Virus record (IMG/VR): IMGVR_UViG_3300005265_000564
Location: 1 to 36,365 of that record
Length of the DNA stretch: 36,365 nucleotides
Strand: one strand, 5' to 3'
Source of the DNA: a virus
Below, one piece after another: positions 7,889 to 36,365 of this stretch. Position 1 is the first letter of the stretch, and each line of letters begins with the position of its first letter. The position numbers were made by a program, and so were the translations under genes. The notes below the pieces were generated by a model. The model was not told where the DNA came from, did no database searches, and saw only the letters and a program-made list of their open reading frames with translations.

Positions 7889-9124
7889 TTGAAAGCAAAC
7901 ATTGAAAAATATATTTTGAATACTATGTTAATTTCTCCTTCACATTGTATTGATTTAATAGATTTGGGAGTGGACAAATATGTTGAACATCCTATAATAA
8001 AACCAATTGTTTCTTTCATATCCTCCTATTATAGACAACACAAAAAGATTCCTCCTGCTGATTTGATAGTAGAAAATTTCCCACAACAAAAATACTTTCT
8101 TTCTGAGATTGTCAATCTTGAGCCTGCTCCTGATTGGGCTGTTTCTGAAGTAGAAAAATTTGTAAAAACGGTAAAGGTTCAGAAATTAACTGAATTTATT
8201 CTAACTAATTCAAGCAATCCGAAAATAACTCCTGAAGAGTTGTGGGAAAAGGGAAGAGAAATTTTGAGATTAAGAACTCCTTCAAGACTTGGAGTTGATT
8301 ATTTTTCTGAAATTCCAAGACCATATTATGAAAAATTTCATCCAGAAAGTTTGGAGAACATTATTCCTACTGGACTTGTAAAGCTTGATGAATTGATGTA
8401 TGGAGGAATGAGGAAAGGATGGTTTGGATTTGTTATGGGTGGAACTGGAATGGGAAAATCTGCTCTGTTAATAAATTTTACGGCAAATGCTTTGTTGTTC
8501 AATAAAAAGGTTTTATACATTTCTTTGGAAATGTCTGTTGATGAAGTTATGCTGAGAATTGATGCTAAACTGACAGGCAAAACAATGGAAGAATTATCTA
8601 ATCCAAGTATGGATAATTATTTGAGGCAATTTCTTTCTATGGTAAAACAGAAATATACAGAAGCAAATTTGAGATTGATTTACTTTCCCTCAAAAAGTAT
8701 AACTGTGAACAAGATTCCTTCAATCATAGAATCTTTTCAGATGATAAATTTCAAACCAGATTTGCTTGTTATTGACTTTGCTGATTACTTTGCTCCCCTT
8801 TCTAAAAGAAATTCGGCATGGGAAGAGGTAGTTGATACATTTCAGGTTCTGCCAGGATTTGCTAAAGAATATGATATGGCAATCTGGACTGCTACTGAAA
8901 TAGGAAAAGCAAAAATGTATAACGAACAGGCAACAATAGATACTATGTATGGTGGTTCAGGGAAATCTTTTGGTGCTGATATTATTTTGGGAATATCTGC
9001 TACTAAAGAGGAAGCAAGGCTTGGTGGTTTAAGATTAACTGTGTCGAAATTTAGACATGGAAGAAGTTTAATTGACATTCCTGTGTTTTTTGATAGAGCA
9101 AGAATGTTAATAAAAACCTTATAA
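7889..9124 (+). CDS. dnaB: DnaB-type replicative DNA helicase (T4 gp41-like)
   Basis: A 411-aa RecA-fold hexameric helicase. An N-terminal helical domain of about 130 residues is followed by the ATPase domain: TGLVKLDELMYGGMRKG entry segment (161-177), Walker A GGTGMGKSAL (184-193), YISLEMSVDEVMLRI (210-224, the DnaB H2 motif), Walker B DLLVIDFADY (291-300), and a Gly-rich YGGSGKSFGAD segment near 354-364 with a FRHGR stretch near the end. I use the TTG at 7889 because AGGAGGT (7874-7880) lies at ideal spacing. It should unwind DNA 5'-3' at the fork. No primase is in the window; the gene to its left is a possible loader by position only. Confidence 0.9.
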   Translation: MKANIEKYILNTMLISPSHCIDLIDLGVDKYVEHPIIKPIVSFISSYYRQHKKIPPADLIVENFPQQKYFLSEIVNLEPAPDWAVSEVEKFVKTVKVQKLTEFILTNSSNPKITPEELWEKGREILRLRTPSRLGVDYFSEIPRPYYEKFHPESLENIIPTGLVKLDELMYGGMRKGWFGFVMGGTGMGKSALLINFTANALLFNKKVLYISLEMSVDEVMLRIDAKLTGKTMEELSNPSMDNYLRQFLSMVKQKYTEANLRLIYFPSKSITVNKIPSIIESFQMINFKPDLLVIDFADYFAPLSKRNSAWEEVVDTFQVLPGFAKEYDMAIWTATEIGKAKMYNEQATIDTMYGGSGKSFGADIILGISATKEEARLGGLRLTVSKFRHGRSLIDIPVFFDRARMLIKTL

Positions 9125-15905: not shown

Positions 15906-16346
15906 ATGGGAATGGAAAATTATGTTGTGTCATTAGAATTAGCAAAGGAATTGAAAGAGGTGGGGTTTCCGCAGAATGATGGAGAATGGTATTGGATACA
16001 AGTAAGGCTTGGCTATAAATGGGAATGGAAGTTATACTTACTTGCGAATTCCCCTTATGCCATTGACAATGATAAAATCAGAGCTCCCCTTGTTGAAGAA
16101 ATTACTAAAGAATTACCTGACCATATTGCGATTGAAAGGGATGGAGAAAGGAAAAAGTATTGGTTAAACATTGAAGTCTATAAAGAAGGTTGCCGTGCTG
16201 GATATAGAACTGACCCTGCTACGCTTGGTGAAATGCCAGAATGGTTGTATGTAAGTGATGTATATCCCAAGCTCTCAGATGCTCTTGCTCAATTATGGCT
16301 CTGGGCTTACGAACGTGGGTATTTGGAGGAGAGAGATGAAGATTAA
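15906..16346 (+). CDS. Conserved-type phage hypothetical protein, 146 aa
   Basis: The N-terminus (LELAKELKEVGFPQNDGEWYW), a middle segment IRAPLVEEITKELPDHI and the C-terminal helix LSDALAQLWLWAYERGYLE follow a pattern that I know from small proteins of unknown function in many phages of Gram-positive hosts. No enzyme motif is present. AAGGAGA lies before the ATG. The C-terminus overlaps the next gene by 11 bases. Confidence 0.75.
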   Translation: MGMENYVVSLELAKELKEVGFPQNDGEWYWIQVRLGYKWEWKLYLLANSPYAIDNDKIRAPLVEEITKELPDHIAIERDGERKKYWLNIEVYKEGCRAGYRTDPATLGEMPEWLYVSDVYPKLSDALAQLWLWAYERGYLEERDED

Positions 16347-16593
16347 AATTGAAACAAAAGAGACACCTATCCAGGAATTTGTAAAAATGTTATATAAATA
16401 TGGTGAGATATGGGCAGAAGTCCCCTGGAACATACCACAGCCACGAATTGCCTGTACTGCTATTCTGCGGTTTGGTGTTGATGAAAAAGGATTTTACTTT
16501 TATAGTGATAGCAAAGGTAAGGTCTATTTGGATATTTATAAAATTCCTTCTGTGCATTTAGTAACAATTACGGAGGAGACAAATGAAGATTAA
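16336..16593 (+). CDS. Hypothetical protein, 85 aa
   Basis: I use the ATG at 16336 with GGAGGAGAG just upstream; a far upstream in-frame ATG (16255) would overlap the previous gene by 92 bases. The product has a helix (IQEFVKMLYKYGEIWAEV) and several strands (GFYFYSDSKGKVYLDIYK). It is not recognised. Its 3' end overlaps the HD-domain gene by 11 bases. Confidence 0.65.
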   Translation: MKIKIETKETPIQEFVKMLYKYGEIWAEVPWNIPQPRIACTAILRFGVDEKGFYFYSDSKGKVYLDIYKIPSVHLVTITEETNED

Positions 16594-17120: not shown

Positions 17121-17155
17121 AAACAGGGAAGGAAAATTTGTTTCCTTCCCTGTTT
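17121..17155. terminator. Bidirectional intrinsic terminator between convergent blocks
   Basis: A perfect 15-bp inverted repeat (AAACAGGGAAGGAAA and its complement) with a 5-base loop lies two bases after the HD gene stop. Read on the minus strand it is followed by a T-run (TTTATTTT), giving a strong intrinsic terminator for the leftward sigma operon. Read on the plus strand its 3' arm ends in TTT, followed by GCTTT. It separates the two convergent transcription blocks. Confidence 0.85.
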
Positions 17156-28978: not shown

Positions 28979-31651
28979 CTACAGCATGTAAGTTGCGTAG
29001 TTAAAGGCTATTCTTATTCTATCTTTATAGTAAGGGTCAGATGGTAGAGCCAAAATTCTATTTCCTACTTTCAATACACTTCCAGGAGAAGATTTCTTAT
29101 TGTCCAACTGTGATTTTACTTTTTCCAAGTAATTTAACACAAAATCTCCATAACCAGTAGAATTATAATATACCCAAACATATGGAGTGTCAGAATTTGC
29201 CTTTTGCCACTCGAACTCCCCCGTGGGAACTGTTGAACCTGTGACAGGAATAACTTTGAGTGTTAATGATGGAGAACGAGAAATGATATTAGAAACTAAT
29301 GAAGAAAAAACATTATCCCAATCAATTTCAAGAGTGTAGTTGTTAGAACGAATTCCCTTAAATCCAATGGGATATGAAAATTCATAAGTTTTTATTCCAA
29401 ATGACCCAGAGGCAGTGTGTGTATATTTTATTCCTGTTATAGAATAGCCAATACAAATATATTTTTTCATTATCAACTGATTATATCCGTATACATCATC
29501 CTTCACTTCAAATTCAATATCATATAAAGTTTCCCTTATTTGTTCTTTTAAATTATCAGCTGTTTCTTCTATTGCTTTTTCAATGAATGAAGGCAACTTG
29601 GGAATAGAAGCATTTTCGGGATTGGATGGAGAAACTTTCTCAATAGTAAGAGTATCTGTTTTAGTTTGCTCGATAAGGTCATCTGAATATTCCAAAAAAG
29701 CTTCCACCTCTTTTAAAGAAACTTTGTCTGGAACCCAAGCTTCTCTGAATTCTCTTTCTGTTGTTGGCTTTGTTACTTTATTAACTTTGGGATGAATAGG
29801 CTTGCTTGTTGGAGTTGATTTTTCATAACTATAATCAGAAAGAAAATCTTTTATGTAATGCCAGGGCATTTTATCAGGAAGTTCCAATACATTCTTTAAG
29901 GGCATACCATATGTTCCCACAACAGAAAAGCTTATATTTGAGGCAGCAGCATAATCTAAAACAACTTGACTTACAGTATACATCCATTCTTGTTGTTCCG
30001 AAATTAACATGTTTCCTAACCAGTAGAACAAGTCTGGTCTATAATCTTGAAGAGACAGAGACAGCTGGAAAAGATTTGCATTTGCAAGGTAAAGCCATGA
30101 TTTTGAAAAATTAACAAATTGTTCTAAAGCAGATTCTGTTATTCTTACGGGAAAATAAAACTCTGGAATAGACATTATTTTGTTATTGTATTGAAATGTA
30201 ATCTTTGGGTCAACATAAAGTCCCCACAAAATCATTTCTTTTACTTCATTAATATTTTCAACAAAATCAACTCCTGCTCTAAAAGATGTTCCTGATATCA
30301 ATTTATCAGCATCTATTGTTAAAGAAACATCTGAACATCCAGTTCTTAAACCAAGAGTTATAAATTCATCAGCATAAATAGATTTTTTGACTCTTGGAAA
30401 TGCGAATAAAATAGAACCATCTGGCCTCTCATATGTCTCCAGAAATGTAAATGCCTTTATTTTATCAAGTGCTTCTCTTATTTGAACAAAACTTCTTGAA
30501 TTTGGTGACCACATTATTTTGCTGACATCAAAAGCTCCTCTGTAGGCTCTTTTGAATATTTCTCCAGTGTTTGAATTTTTGATAACATCCTCATCTATCT
30601 TAAACATAGTTCTGTTATTCAAATAAGCCTCTGGACTTATTTCTTCATCCAAATCCATTGTAATAGGAGATGTTTCCTCAACTATATTTGTTTTCAATTC
30701 AATAATACTCTCTGGTTCAGGAAATAGTCCTCCAAAATCAGAAAGAAAGGATAAAGGAGAATAATTTTTAACAAATGAATTGTAAGAATTGACCAAACTC
30801 TCCAATTCTCCTTCACTCTTTACATTTATTCCAGCTTCTCTTATAAAAGTCAAATCAGGAACATCATCTGATGATAGTAAGATAGAGCCTGACCTGATAT
30901 TTCCTACTCTGGCTATAAATTTTAAAAATTCAAACAAATCAAGATTCTGAAGAAGTGTAAAACCTCTCAAATCATCTCTTGTAAACATATCTTGAAAGCT
31001 TTTTGGGTATTGACCAAGCCAAAGAGCAAGTGCTAAATCAACAACTTCTTTCGGAAATTTTCTGCTCTTCATTACATCAGAGTAAAGAAAAGCAGACAAC
31101 AAACTATTCACAAAATCAAGACTTGTTAAATAATTAGCAAATGAAGAAGCACGTATGTCCATGCTTATGCCAGAAGGGGCTTTTGAGTAAGTGTAAGTTA
31201 TTCCTCTCACAAGTCCAGAAAAAACTCTTACCCATTTGTTGTTATATAGAAAATCAATAAATACAAGACTGTTTATATTAAAGATTGGAGATGGTGTTAA
31301 TGACTTGCCCTCCAAATTTGTGGAAACAGGGAACATATCCTTCAAAAATTGGTAGTAGTTTTCTTTATATAATACTTTTAACAAAGACACAACACTAATT
31401 ATATAGTCATCATATTCAGTGTTATATATGGAATCTCTTTTTATCAACATTTCAGATTTGTCAAAAATGACTATATGAGCTTCTCCATTTAACTGCTTTC
31501 CCAATTTTACTGTAATATTTTTAGCAGGCAATTTGTAAACATCAACTTTATCCGAATGGGGTAAATTTTCAAATGGAGACAAAACAACAAATTTCCACTT
31601 GTCATACCCAGATGAAGAAGAAAATATTATTCTGTATATAATTTCTTTCAT
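28979..31651 (-). CDS. Baseplate hub-like protein, 890 aa
   Basis: A large protein encoded between tape measure and spike-like genes, the position of the hub (gp27/gpD). Residues 129-170 (FIDFLYNNKWVRVFSGLVRGI, then GISMDIRASSFANYL) read like the hub tube domains, which have V..F.G.V..I followed by a strand-rich repeat. Many hydrophobic strands and helices follow, with a Pro/Thr-rich linker (KSTPTSKPIHPKVNKVTKPTTER, about residue 620). At 890 residues it is much larger than T4 gp27 (391 aa) or P2 gpD, so it probably carries extra domains that I do not recognise. The RBS is weak (AAGTAGAT), suggesting coupling to the tape-measure gene that ends two bases before it. Confidence 0.5.
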   Translation of the reverse strand: MKEIIYRIIFSSSSGYDKWKFVVLSPFENLPHSDKVDVYKLPAKNITVKLGKQLNGEAHIVIFDKSEMLIKRDSIYNTEYDDYIISVVSLLKVLYKENYYQFLKDMFPVSTNLEGKSLTPSPIFNINSLVFIDFLYNNKWVRVFSGLVRGITYTYSKAPSGISMDIRASSFANYLTSLDFVNSLLSAFLYSDVMKSRKFPKEVVDLALALWLGQYPKSFQDMFTRDDLRGFTLLQNLDLFEFLKFIARVGNIRSGSILLSSDDVPDLTFIREAGINVKSEGELESLVNSYNSFVKNYSPLSFLSDFGGLFPEPESIIELKTNIVEETSPITMDLDEEISPEAYLNNRTMFKIDEDVIKNSNTGEIFKRAYRGAFDVSKIMWSPNSRSFVQIREALDKIKAFTFLETYERPDGSILFAFPRVKKSIYADEFITLGLRTGCSDVSLTIDADKLISGTSFRAGVDFVENINEVKEMILWGLYVDPKITFQYNNKIMSIPEFYFPVRITESALEQFVNFSKSWLYLANANLFQLSLSLQDYRPDLFYWLGNMLISEQQEWMYTVSQVVLDYAAASNISFSVVGTYGMPLKNVLELPDKMPWHYIKDFLSDYSYEKSTPTSKPIHPKVNKVTKPTTEREFREAWVPDKVSLKEVEAFLEYSDDLIEQTKTDTLTIEKVSPSNPENASIPKLPSFIEKAIEETADNLKEQIRETLYDIEFEVKDDVYGYNQLIMKKYICIGYSITGIKYTHTASGSFGIKTYEFSYPIGFKGIRSNNYTLEIDWDNVFSSLVSNIISRSPSLTLKVIPVTGSTVPTGEFEWQKANSDTPYVWVYYNSTGYGDFVLNYLEKVKSQLDNKKSSPGSVLKVGNRILALPSDPYYKDRIRIAFNYATYML

Positions 31652-31652
31652 G

Positions 31653-33566
31653 TTATCTACTTGGCGAAATTTCTGGTATAATTGTTGGTGTTGTAGAAGG
31701 TTTCAAAAGCTTTATTGATATATCTCTCACATGAGATTCAATATTCTTTATATGTTGTTCAACATTCTTAAAACTCGACAAATAGGTTTCCCAATTTTTA
31801 TTTATCTGAGCGAATTGTCTTGAAGTATTATCAAGTTGTCCATAAACTCCTGTCGGGTCTCTGCTCAATGTATAATTAACCATATCCAATCTTGACATAA
31901 GTCTAAAAAGATTCTGTTCATTTATTCCAGCATATCTTGCCAAAAATTCTCTCATAAGAAAAGTCTGAGCAATAGGACTTTGAGTAATCATAGCTGGAAG
32001 TTCAGTAGTAAATAGTTGTAGTGTTCTTTGTCTTACCTGCCGTGCCAATTCCTGCGGAGTCATTCCTACTTCACCAGCATAGGATATTAACCTTTGGACA
32101 GCTCTTCCTATTCTGTCGGTTCTTTGAGCAAGTTGTAATATCTGTTGGGGAGCAGTTGTTCTTAAAATGTTAATTGCTTCTAATGCTCCAACAATCCCTT
32201 CTCTTTCAGCAACTTCTCTAACAAATCCTCCAACTGGAGTTTGTTCTCTCAGAAGACTCCACAAAACCATTCCAACATTTTGCCTTCCCATCAATCCTCT
32301 TATTGCTTGTTCATATTCTTGTGTTGTGACAGCACCTATTCTTAACTGTTCAGCAAACCTTGAGGCAACTCTGGCATTTTCCCTTAAACCATAACCAAAC
32401 CATCTTAAACCTTCTGAAGCACTAACTACCCAATTAACAAACAGATTTTCCTCAATATTCAAATTTTCAGCAGTTGCTCTTAATCTCCCCAAAGTTCCAG
32501 CAAGCAATTCAAAATCTCTTGAGCCTGTCATTCTTCCCAATCTTGTTGTGAATTCAAGCATCTGTCTAACAGTCAAGCCCATCTGGGAAGCCAGAATATA
32601 CATTCGTGGAATAACCTGTTCTATTGCTGCAAAAAATTGTTCTGGTCTTTCAGCAAATACCCTCAAGAGATTTCTGTATTCTCCACCAAGACTTTGCAAG
32701 GCAGGAAGAAGATTGAATTCAACAAGCTGACCAGATTGCCTTAAAAGTTGAAATAATTGAGTTTGCTCCTGCTCTGTGATTCTATATCTGTAATAAATTC
32801 TGTTCATCAAAACACCAAACATTTCTCCGCCTCTTGCCCACATCTCCCATCTTTCGCCAAACATCTGCTGATAAGCAGGTGCTGCCATCGTTGTGTATAA
32901 TTGCCTACCCTGCATATAGGTTTCCTGAACAAATTGATAAAGCCTCATTCCCAATTCATACAATAGGTAAAGAATTCCTCCTCTTCCACCGAATCTTCTA
33001 AAAGCATTAACAACTCTATTTATTGTAGTTGATAAACCACCCAAACCTGTTCTTCTTGCAAAATTTCCAATTATATCAGAAGTTGCTCTTCTGAGTCCTT
33101 TTATTTCTTCTGCTTGCTGTTGTAACAAAGAGTTTGACTGTCTTAAAAATCTTCTTTGGCTCAAATTTTGACTTGTAGAAGATTCATAAAGTCTTTCAAC
33201 TAATCTTCTTAAATATCTAACATCATTCCTTAAATCAGAACCTCTTTCTCCAGCAGAAGATTCTTGGGCAACTCTTGTTAAGTTCTCCAGAGCTTGAGGA
33301 AAAGAAGAAAGGGATTCCGAGATATTGCGAAGTCTTCTTCTTATTCTTTCCAGTGTATAATTTGAAATTTTTGTCAATTCAAATGACCACTCTCTTGTTA
33401 TGTTTTTAACCTGTCTGATTGACCTTGCGAGTTCATCATTTTGTATTTTCAATTTATCCATAAGAGTAGAATACTTGTTTAGTTCTTTAACAAGCTCAAC
33501 AATGTTTCTTTCCATTTCTTTCACTTTTTCTACTTGCTTATCAATATCATCCATTCTCTGAGGCAT
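31653..33566 (-). CDS. Tail tape measure protein
   Basis: A 637-aa protein in the position after the frameshifting chaperone. The N-terminal 180 residues form a long coiled coil rich in Arg, Gln, Glu and Leu, followed by a hydrophobic patch (GGILYLLYELGMRLYQFV, about 193-210). A large helical domain with Arg/Gln-rich repeats (LARQVRQRTLQLF, RLRATAENLNIEEN) then runs to a C-terminal helix and a Pro/Ile/Ser end. Tape-measure proteins set tail length and are ejected or line the tube. The length would predict a tail of about 90-100 nm using the usual 0.15 nm per residue; that estimate is inference. Confidence 0.75.
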   Translation of the reverse strand: MPQRMDDIDKQVEKVKEMERNIVELVKELNKYSTLMDKLKIQNDELARSIRQVKNITREWSFELTKISNYTLERIRRRLRNISESLSSFPQALENLTRVAQESSAGERGSDLRNDVRYLRRLVERLYESSTSQNLSQRRFLRQSNSLLQQQAEEIKGLRRATSDIIGNFARRTGLGGLSTTINRVVNAFRRFGGRGGILYLLYELGMRLYQFVQETYMQGRQLYTTMAAPAYQQMFGERWEMWARGGEMFGVLMNRIYYRYRITEQEQTQLFQLLRQSGQLVEFNLLPALQSLGGEYRNLLRVFAERPEQFFAAIEQVIPRMYILASQMGLTVRQMLEFTTRLGRMTGSRDFELLAGTLGRLRATAENLNIEENLFVNWVVSASEGLRWFGYGLRENARVASRFAEQLRIGAVTTQEYEQAIRGLMGRQNVGMVLWSLLREQTPVGGFVREVAEREGIVGALEAINILRTTAPQQILQLAQRTDRIGRAVQRLISYAGEVGMTPQELARQVRQRTLQLFTTELPAMITQSPIAQTFLMREFLARYAGINEQNLFRLMSRLDMVNYTLSRDPTGVYGQLDNTSRQFAQINKNWETYLSSFKNVEQHIKNIESHVRDISIKLLKPSTTPTIIPEISPSR

Positions 33567-33567
33567 A

Positions 33568-34377
33568 TTATATCAGCTCCATTGTTGTTTCTCTTTTTGA
33601 TTCAGGCAACCAATTGTTTGTTGAATCATACGAATATGTTCTTATCTCTCCTGAATCAATTAAATTTTTTATTCCATCAATAGCAGATTGAGTATAAAAC
33701 AAATCCCATCCTGATAAAGGATGAAACGAACACACAAGTCTGTATTCACAGTAATTTGGATAATTTGCGTCCAAATCGAAAGAAAAGTTATCTAACCAAC
33801 CATACCATATTTTTCCAGCAATTACAACAATGTGAGGTTTATGATTATAACTCTGGAAATACTTTTTAAATGCCCACAACTGAAACCATCCATCCGATAG
33901 TTTTACGGGATTCGTTGGAAACACTTTAGCAATATCAAATTTCGACAACTTTCCTATTAATGTGTTAAATAAAGAGTATGGAGAAAGATTAAACCATCCC
34001 GTGATTGTAGTTGAAATCAATTTGCTTCCCCATCCATACCTTATGAATGTATTAGAACCCAAATCAACTTCTGTTTTTAGAGCAGTTTCAGAAATTGATA
34101 TTTTCTTTGGATGTTGAGGAAATTTGAACACTCCTTCCTTTGTCAAAAAAGAAGAAATTTTGTCTTTTAAAACAAGCCTTAAAAGTTCTTCAGATGTGTT
34201 TAGAATCTCTTTCGATAGAGAAGAACCCAACGCAAGGCTCAAAAGAAAATCAGCAACATTTCTGCCTATTAACTTTTCTAATTCTCTTTGAAATGTTGTA
34301 GAACTTCTCTCACCAAAAAATATGTCAGACAATGCTACTATAAAAGAATCAGATGAGGTGTAATTCCATATTGCCAT
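33568..34377 (-). CDS. Tail-associated protein downstream of the chaperone, 269 aa
   Basis: Lies between the chaperone and the tape measure. The N-terminal half is helical (RELEKLIGRNVADFLLSLALG, then EELLRLVLKDKISSFL); the second half is strand-rich with FKFPQHPKKISISETALKTEVDLG, FIRYGWGSKLISTTITGWFNL and WYGWLDNFSFDLDANYPNYC. That pattern recalls the N-terminal domain of phage LysM/baseplate proteins (XkdP-like), but no LysM motif is visible. Virion or assembly role from context; not recognised further. Confidence 0.6.
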   Translation of the reverse strand: MAIWNYTSSDSFIVALSDIFFGERSSTTFQRELEKLIGRNVADFLLSLALGSSLSKEILNTSEELLRLVLKDKISSFLTKEGVFKFPQHPKKISISETALKTEVDLGSNTFIRYGWGSKLISTTITGWFNLSPYSLFNTLIGKLSKFDIAKVFPTNPVKLSDGWFQLWAFKKYFQSYNHKPHIVVIAGKIWYGWLDNFSFDLDANYPNYCEYRLVCSFHPLSGWDLFYTQSAIDGIKNLIDSGEIRTYSYDSTNNWLPESKRETTMELI

Positions 34378-34380
34378 TTT

Positions 34381-34704
34381 TCACTCCAAAGAATTTAGTT
34401 TCTCTGGAAGGAGGGATAATATTCTGAACAAAGATGATTCAGATGCTCTTTTTATTCTGTAATTTATTTCTGCTTGGTTTCTCACAGGCTTCTCTCCCTC
34501 TCCAAGCTTTTTGCCTGCTTGTGGGTCAAGTATAGAAACTATCAATTTAGCATAGAACAAATCTTTTTTCTGTTTTGCTTTCTCATCCTCTATAATATTC
34601 TTTGCAATCCACAACAATTTTCCTGGTGAATGGAGAATCTTCAGGAATCGGGGGTCGGAGGGGTCTTTAAATCCAAGCTCTCTGAAGATTCTCCAAGCTG
34701 TCCG
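34381..34704 (-). CDS. -1 frame extension of the tail assembly chaperone
   Basis: From the slippery site the -1 frame is open for 107 codons to a TGA at 34381-34383 and reads as a normal helical protein (FRELGFKDPSDPRFLKI, LLWIAKNIIEDEKAKQ, RASESSLFRILSLLPEK). Made only as a fusion with residues 1-150 of the zero-frame protein, giving 257 aa in total, it would be the GT-like form that recruits the tape measure and tube. A separate start is unlikely: the first candidate (TTG near 34617) has only a GGA upstream, and the coding pattern extends well upstream of it. Confidence 0.8.
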   Translation of the reverse strand, partial: RTAWRIFRELGFKDPSDPRFLKILHSPGKLLWIAKNIIEDEKAKQKKDLFYAKLIVSILDPQAGKKLGEGEKPVRNQAEINYRIKRASESSLFRILSLLPEKLNSLE

Positions 34705-34710
34705 AAAAAA
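34631..34710 (-). promoter_or_regulatory. Programmed -1 frameshift signal (slippery heptamer + stem)
   Basis: On the minus strand T-TTT-TTC (34710-34704) sits in the correct phase of the zero frame (GGT TTT TTC). Eight bases later a perfect 14-bp stem begins: TGGAGAATCTTCAG (34695-34682) pairs with CTGAAGATTCTCCA (34644-34631), loop 37 bases. The zero-frame stop lies inside the 3' arm. An overlapping A-AAG-GGT heptamer (34716-34710) precedes it in the same phase. Heptamer, spacer and stem form the classic layout of -1 frameshift sites. Confidence 0.85.
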
Positions 34711-35153
34711 CCCTTTGAAACTACCTCCTCCAGTTTTCCCAATCTACTTTGAATTTCTGCTCTTGCTTTCTGAGCACCCCACTCATAAGCTCCATAAATA
34801 TAATCAATTACATCAGGCTTTAAAGAAAGCAATACAGTTCTCAAAATAACTTTTTCTTCAAGCTGTAAAAAAGAGTGTTTCACCTTTTGTGGACTTTCAA
34901 TAGAAATAATGGCTTGAGTTAATACTTCAACTCTTAACAATTTGTTTCTTGTCAGGGCATCAAGATTAGAAGTTCTCCTCAACACTGCCCTTTCTTCCCA
35001 TTCAGACAAAAGACCAAATTCAAATGTATAACCACCAATTTCAACTGTCCATGTATCACTTCCCAAATTTATTAACTCAGTAAATTGAGTAAGAAAATCT
35101 CTATCGAGTTTATCAAGTCTGGGATATTCAGAACTTGTTATATCTTCAAACAT
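34641..35153 (-). CDS. Tail assembly chaperone, zero-frame product (gpG-like)
   Basis: A 170-aa protein after the tail tube gene. It is acidic-helical (LDRDFLTQFTELINLGSDTWTVEIGGYTFEFGLLSEWEERAVLRRT, then EEKVILRTVLLSLKPDVIDYIYGAYEWGAQKARAEIQSRL) and ends in a Pro/Thr-rich tail. Position, size and the frameshift signal near its 3' end match the gpG/gpGT system of long-tailed phages, where a small fraction of ribosomes makes a longer fusion. AAGGAGGG is well placed before the ATG. Chaperones of this family bind the tape measure during tail assembly and are usually absent from virions. Confidence 0.8.
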   Translation of the reverse strand: MFEDITSSEYPRLDKLDRDFLTQFTELINLGSDTWTVEIGGYTFEFGLLSEWEERAVLRRTSNLDALTRNKLLRVEVLTQAIISIESPQKVKHSFLQLEEKVILRTVLLSLKPDVIDYIYGAYEWGAQKARAEIQSRLGKLEEVVSKGFFGQLGESSESLDLKTPPTPDS

Positions 35154-35190: not shown

Positions 35191-35724
35191 TTAAATTTCT
35201 TCAATGTCTATGTTTGACACAATTACTGTTACTCTTTCAGAAACAAAGGCTTGAGTTATCTGATAAGCTCCAGCCCAATCCCTTATTAAACAATCAAGAT
35301 ATGTTTTTCTGATTCCTTTTGATGTTGCGGGGTGAATTGTTTCTTCAACTATATTGAATGGAATTGCCTGTTTATTTAGAACAGAAAGAATGGCCTCTGC
35401 CGTTGTATTTCCTGCTCTGTATAATCTGTCAATTAGAGAACCTGTAGCAACTCCTTCATACCCTGGATGATAAAGATAGAAACCCTCAACAACAAGCTGA
35501 ATATCTTCTGGACTATATGTAAGCTCAACAACTCTGCCTGCATCTGCTGCGTTGAAATGTCTCTGTCTGTCAACTCTTCTGGTGCTTGAAGGTTCAAACC
35601 TTGTTATATATCCTATCTCATTTCCTTCCTGGTCATACACTGTAAGAGAAATTATTGGATTTAAAATACGTGCTTTCTCTGACGCACTCATTCCAAAGCC
35701 TGCTTTAACAAATCCTGTAGGCAT
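35191..35724 (-). CDS. Tail tube protein
   Basis: A 177-aa protein following the sheath gene. The strands SLTVYDQEGNEIGYITRFEPSSTRRVDRQRHFNAADAGRVVELTYSPEDIQLVVEGF fit the Hcp/gp19 beta-barrel pattern, with a helix (LIDRLYRAGNTTAEAILSVLN) and a second sheet (KTYLDCLIRDWAGAYQITQAF). The order sheath, tube, chaperone, tape measure is the normal one for myoviruses, so the call rests on both fold reading and position. AGGAGGT precedes the start. It would form the inner tube that passes DNA. Confidence 0.75.
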   Translation of the reverse strand: MPTGFVKAGFGMSASEKARILNPIISLTVYDQEGNEIGYITRFEPSSTRRVDRQRHFNAADAGRVVELTYSPEDIQLVVEGFYLYHPGYEGVATGSLIDRLYRAGNTTAEAILSVLNKQAIPFNIVEETIHPATSKGIRKTYLDCLIRDWAGAYQITQAFVSERVTVIVSNIDIEEI

Positions 35725-35739
35725 GATTATTTACCTCCT

Positions 35740-36365
35740 TTATACAATAAATTCATGGTCTACCCAAATTTTATTAATGGGATAAACAGGTCTGTATTTG
35801 TAATAGCCATCTATTCTTGTAGGGTCAGTAGCATTCTGAGTTATGGAAACAGAACTCTTGTCAAAATCAGCAATCCATTCTCTCCTGAGATATTCATTCA
35901 AAACCTGATTTATAAACAGAGATTTTATGCTTCTCAATCTTTTATCCAGAGCTTTCTTCCCTCTAAATCTTTTCAGGAACTCTCTGTTTTCTTTATCCAT
36001 CAAATCTTCCGTAACAGCAATAGACAATTCTGAATCTTCTATTGAAAGATTTGGCATACAAGTTAGAATTGCTCTGTAAACATAAGGAATACCACCAGGC
36101 TCATCAGCAACAAGAATTGTAACACCTTGGTCTGTATAAGTCTTTATTGTTTCTGTATCAAAAGCAGTTCCATAATGATAAAATCCAGATATAGATTTTT
36201 CAGTAAGAGGTTCTGCTGGGTCTCCTGTAGAAGCATAAACTGCAAGAGCAGCAATTGCCTCAATAACAGGAGTTATACTTTGGGAACTATCAGGAGCTGT
36301 TACATTTACATTGGATGAATAAGAACCGTCAGAATTTCTCCACATATAAACCTTTACATTATTTG
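35740..36365 (-). CDS. Tail sheath protein, C-terminal part (partial)
   Basis: The frame is open beyond the right edge of the window (6 more codons before a Met at 36345), so only about 208 C-terminal codons of the sheath are visible. The C-terminal sheath hallmarks are clear: TYTDQGVTILVADEPGG, CMPNLSIEDSELSIAVTEDLMDKENREFLKRF, then INQVLNEYLRREWIADFD, DKSSVSITQNATDPTRIDGY and the end YKYRPVYPINKIWVDHEF. These match the sheath end region in which a helix pair precedes a beta strand that joins neighbouring subunits. Its presence identifies the phage as a contractile-tailed type. Confidence 0.85.
   Translation of the reverse strand, partial: NNVKVYMWRNSDGSYSSNVNVTAPDSSQSITPVIEAIAALAVYASTGDPAEPLTEKSISGFYHYGTAFDTETIKTYTDQGVTILVADEPGGIPYVYRAILTCMPNLSIEDSELSIAVTEDLMDKENREFLKRFRGKKALDKRLRSIKSLFINQVLNEYLRREWIADFDKSSVSITQNATDPTRIDGYYKYRPVYPINKIWVDHEFIV

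Follow-up and report, generated by a model that had tools for sequence, protein, structure and literature searches.

Do two overlapping reading frames in the tail gene cluster of a poorly sampled virus represent two genes, or the short and the long product of one? This question is raised by positions 34,381 to 35,153 of the IMG/VR record IMGVR_UViG_3300005265_000564, of which all 36,365 nucleotides were analysed and are referred to here as the window. The record derives from a bacterial virus that has not been cultivated and that has a contractile tail; hardly any relatives of its lineage are known. The locus, which lies on the minus strand like the signal elements and the genes between 31653 and 36363 located below, very probably encodes the frameshifted tail assembly chaperone of a contractile-tailed phage, with predicted products of 170 and 257 aa. 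The initial annotation had proposed the same frameshifted tail chaperone, and the proposal, still a prediction, gains support from the gene order and from T-domain homology that sets in immediately past the slip, with the first codon.

The zero-frame ORF (35153..34641) starts with an ATG preceded by GGAGG and encodes 170 aa. Within it, the slippery heptamer T_TTT_TTC lies in phase at 34710-34704, with TTT TTC in the zero frame and TTT TTT in the -1 frame. An 8-nt spacer (34703-34696) separates it from a putative stimulatory hairpin (34695-34631) with a perfect 14-bp stem, in which TGGAGAATCTTCAG (34695-34682) pairs with CTGAAGATTCTCCA (34644-34631) around a loop of 37 nt and which is prolonged inward by an imperfect inner helix. 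The zero-frame stop TGA (34643-34641), 67 nt from the first base of the heptamer, is located within the 3' arm of this stem, where it is paired and not in the loop. From the slip onwards the -1 frame stays open until a stop at 34383-34381, which adds 107 residues to 150 zero-frame residues and gives the fusion of 257 aa. The initial annotation had described the in-phase heptamer, the 8-base spacer, the perfect stem enclosing the zero-frame stop and the 107-codon extension, and all of these were found as described. Two more in-phase heptamers just upstream, A_AAG_GGT (34716) and G_GGT_TTT (34713), are absent from it. The possibility of slippage at T_TTA_AAG (34671) instead was rejected, as this sequence is situated inside the hairpin loop and would hence lack the stem as a stimulator. 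A search of Rfam gave no match.

A further element, overlooked in the initial annotation, is found inside the chaperone gene upstream of the heptamer. This is the SD-like sequence GGAGGAGGT (34731-34723), whose core GGAGGAGG ends 13 nt before the heptamer and which has no start codon (ATG, GTG or TTG) at start-codon distance behind it. The spacing to the heptamer is that of dnaX-type -1 signals. Inside genes, AGGAGG occurs in eight copies over 26 kb, so that a copy at such a spacing is uncommon, though this is not proof. An upstream SD-like element, a heptamer and a downstream stem-loop are all present, and GGAGGAGGT, likely acting as a 5' stimulator, would turn the signal into a tripartite one like that of E. 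coli dnaX. One of the main stimulators of the shift in dnaX is an SD that precedes the site, and an estimated 56% of IS elements have an SD in this position (PMC5009743). The likeness to dnaX is one of working, with a 5' SD, a heptamer and a 3' stem-loop (PMC5009743), whereas the gene and the heptamer are others, the shift in dnaX leads to a shorter product, and the two are not homologous.

The elements of the signal are all there and are jointly improbable. Heptamers of the type X_XXY_YYZ occur in phase 95 times in the 9389 codons of the window genes, T_TTT_TTC only here, and the fold downstream of it (-27.5 kcal/mol) is the most stable among all 95. The 84-nt segment 3' of the heptamer folds with -28.5 kcal/mol (z = -3.3). 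When the window was shuffled ten times under a Markov model, no perfect stem reached 14 bp with a loop of 60 nt or less, and of 4000 codon permutations of the region 2 placed a stem of 10 bp or more at 5-10 nt behind an in-phase heptamer. The run of six Ts at the slip site would also allow for a fusion made by transcriptional instead of ribosomal slippage. In the bacterial cases of transcriptional slippage that a review describes, however, the A or T runs have a length of about nine (PMC5009743), and a 3' hairpin at 8 nt together with a 5' SD fits ribosomal frameshifting, even if a stem can aid polymerase slippage too; slippage by the polymerase is so improbable here that it is close to negligible.

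Ribosomal frameshifting in a tail chaperone gene also agrees with the surroundings of the site. The tail sheath gene, of which the C-terminal part is present (35740..36363, extending past the window edge; phrog_279 tail sheath, E 4e-10; Pfam PF17482, E 2.7e-7), is followed by a 177-aa tail-tube candidate (35191..35724), named from its position and matching no family in PHROG and Pfam profiles, and then by the chaperone ORF pair. Behind the pair follow a tail protein of unknown kind (33568..34377, 269 aa) with its own SD (GGAG), which in genome contigs had a single match of 35 residues, and a tape-measure-like protein (31653..33566, 637 aa), named from its position and a weak match to Pfam TMP_3 (E 0.0017, under the cut-off). 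The pair is therefore placed between the tube and sheath genes and the tape-measure-like gene with one extra gene intervening, and as read from the sequence this order matches that of known frameshifted chaperone loci. Elsewhere in the window, a perfect 15-bp inverted repeat with a 5-nt loop (17121-17155) between convergent genes is probably a bidirectional terminator.

Similarity of the sheath pointed to the phages G, LE2-3, Tunturi_5 and Myrna. In G, LE2-3 and Myrna a chaperone pair, whose first ORF carries an in-phase -1 heptamer close to its end, occupies the same slot; it is annotated as joined in G and Myrna and as two genes in LE2-3, and next to the sheath of Tunturi_5 no such pair is annotated. 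The 170-aa protein is co-linear with Bacillus phage G gp181/gp182 and with the LE2-3 chaperone, and can be regarded as a G-like zero-frame chaperone. As in the window, the phage G pair stands behind sheath and tube genes, is expressed as a -1 fusion according to its annotated join, and is homologous across the junction. It differs in that its heptamer, A_AAA_AAC, is found at the stop codon with a weak downstream fold, that its T part is much longer, and that no 269-aa gene precedes the tape measure. In Eggerthella phage LE2-3 (L010:8156-8892), the chaperone and the next hypothetical protein overlap in -1 and are annotated separately; an A_AAA_AAA at 8551 is followed by a very stable fold (-45 kcal/mol).

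The identity of the -1 product is addressed most directly by comparison with phage G. The predicted fusion aligns co-linearly with gp182 through the shift point with a score of 116, compared with 36.7 +/- 5.3 for shuffles (maximum 64; Gumbel p about 2e-9). Each part taken alone is also akin to this known frameshifted chaperone, the -1 part to gp182 with p about 8e-5 and the G part, more weakly, to phage G with p about 3e-4. As the T part of phage G resembles the second ORFs of Herelleviridae, a T-domain HMM was built from the sequences of other phages only, the window sequence being in no profile; phage G had been looked at by eye before the profile test, so that the family was not chosen blindly. 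Of the 1011 fragments from a six-frame translation of the window, only the -1 frame was matched significantly by this HMM (17.3 bits, E 2e-4); the second-best fragment reached 7.0 bits, and the top score in 20,220 shuffled decoys was 7.9 bits. The match spans 34704-34567 and begins at the first codon past the slip. A wider T-domain profile again identified the -1 frame (E 4e-4), a genome-wide profile search returned the same 34567-34704 (E 3.2e-4), and hhalign of the -1 part against the T domain gave E 6.7e-6 at a probability of 85%. By these comparisons, the -1 extension (34381..34704), an open frame with a T-like domain and a coding score of its own, is homologous to the T domains of the chaperones of phage G and Herelleviridae, and the match from the slip point is the main evidence that translation of the -1 frame would start there.

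The same match bears on the possibility of two separate genes, the second starting at TTG 34617, either independently or by termination-reinitiation, with the hairpin serving some other purpose. An AGGA 3 nt upstream of this TTG and a codon usage that is clearly coding only from about 34617 onward would fit such a start. Over 34617-34384 the -1 frame scores 0.146, where the 99th percentile of off-frame scores is -0.032; the zero frame up to the slip site scores 0.231 per codon, and in the 20 dual-coded codons codon usage prefers the zero frame (0.109) to the -1 frame (-0.19). The amino-acid homology in these 20 codons is nevertheless that of the -1 frame, contrary to codon usage. T-domain homology begins at 34704, which is 29 codons upstream of the TTG, and takes in the conserved R..W and PSDPR motifs; since the matched region takes in this overlap, a start at the TTG cannot yield the conserved protein. 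The second ORF, shifted in frame and overlapping the first, has no good start of its own beyond this TTG with its weak SD. Such a start is atypical for the window, where genes mostly begin with ATG, the majority behind an SD of the GAGG/AGGAG type and with GGAGG-like SDs prevailing, and the relatives encode a fusion. Two independently started genes are thus very unlikely.

The ORF pair is strongly diverged. Neither ORF was recognised directly by PHROG or Pfam families, and the PHROG chaperone families phrog_4988 and phrog_1316 gave no match even at E 10; the chaperone proteins are too diverged for these two profiles. A nine-sequence profile of diverse zero-frame chaperones missed the 170-aa ORF, and a PDB sequence search returned no relevant match. 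AlphaFold modelled the 170-aa ORF alone poorly (pLDDT 39.5) and the T part alone as all helical with a pLDDT of 62.8, for which the best Foldseek match had an E of 0.6. Matches by tblastn to an Aeromonas 'RNA polymerase' and to Serratia (E of at least 0.6) were dismissed as chance.

The Herelleviridae chaperones (SPO1 gp10.2/gp11.1, Twort TmpB and the Listeria and Enterococcus relatives) share a homologous T domain with the window but differ in the relation of the frames. In SPO1 and Adastra the homologous pair is annotated as a +1 frameshift fusion, and the reading frames of Twort, List-36 and A2 likewise stand in +1, while the window has -1. The pairs of Twort (L014:2520-3504), Enterococcus phage A2 (L015:2505-3627) and Listeria phage List-36 (L018:2535-3639) are annotated as separate genes; their T domain has an open frame in +1 alone, the -1 frame being closed, and starts 14 nt before the stop of the first ORF, beside a common C-terminal F-R-Y-stop. 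The T domain of Herelleviridae chaperones is widely labelled 'RNA polymerase beta subunit' (e.g. L023:1555-2091, L025:1543-1989), which is also the PHROG name of phrog_1316; position and homology to phage G gp182 indicate that it is a chaperone part.

As the slip site is a homopolymer covered by one assembly only, a run of seven Ts that has lost one T through an assembly or sequencing error would also produce the two frames, the true gene being a single continuous ORF. The one other assembly is the sibling contig IMGVR_UViG_3300005099_000066 (76,948 bp), which is 99% identical over window positions 1-29421 and carries RecA-, DNA polymerase A- and helicase-like genes; it stops inside the hub-like gene at 29421, short of the frameshift site. 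The two assemblies do differ once within window ORFs, by a single-base CC/CCC indel at 16450 in the ORF 16255-16593, but this is the only homopolymer-type indel inside an ORF in about 29 kb. An error would not account for the 14-bp stem or for an SD that is suitably spaced, and the first ORF of G, LE2-3 and Myrna likewise stops close to the junction of the domains and has a -1 heptamer there. An artefact of this kind is exceedingly improbable. A search of IMG/VR for relatives covering the site, which used the chaperone, the T part, the tube candidate, the tape measure and the hub-like, RecA and baseplate J proteins as seven queries, found nothing beyond the 99% sibling.

For programmed frameshifting at this locus, we infer the following course of events. 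The majority of ribosomes would translate the 170-aa G-like chaperone to its stop codon. The hairpin 8 nt ahead would pause the ribosome at T_TTT_TTC, TTT occupying its P site and TTC its A site, and pairing of the internal SD with the 16S rRNA would probably help the slip. A minority of ribosomes would then move back by one base, with both tRNA-Phe re-pairing on TTT TTT, unwind the hairpin and continue through the T part to give the 257-aa GT-like fusion. The tail genes P2 E/E+E' and lambda G/GT also have a -1 slippery site (PMC5009743), and P2 and its relatives use the T-run heptamers T6G and T7G, with T7C predicted (PMC3931495). The slip run of P2 is T6G (PMC3931495) and that of the window T6C, a comparison at the level of the sequence signal. 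The binding partner of lambda gpG is the tape measure and that of the T part the tail shaft subunit, with a ratio of about 30:1, and shifting in P2 has a 2- to 3-fold higher efficiency (PMC5009743). By analogy to lambda, the G part would bind the tape measure and the T part recruit tube subunits, with the ratio of the two products setting tail assembly; the strong stem suggests that shifting may be more frequent here than in lambda.

Among phages with long tails, T4 excepted, the frameshift is widely conserved (PMC5009743; Xu, Hendrix and Duda 2004 cited there), and making a short and a long chaperone by ribosomal slippage has long been known in other tailed phages; here it is predicted for a poorly sampled lineage. 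A phage lineage that is strongly diverged would thereby join the conserved tail-chaperone frameshift, with a strong signal, and the annotation would be corrected from two genes to a 257-aa fusion and a 170-aa product. The homology of the T domain also makes this locus a case of a fusion product that is retained while the direction of the frameshift varies among phage groups. There is about an even chance that the fusion was kept while the direction and the machinery of the shift were replaced, with -1 here and in phage G, +1 in the SPO1 group and a full dnaX-like three-part signal in this phage.
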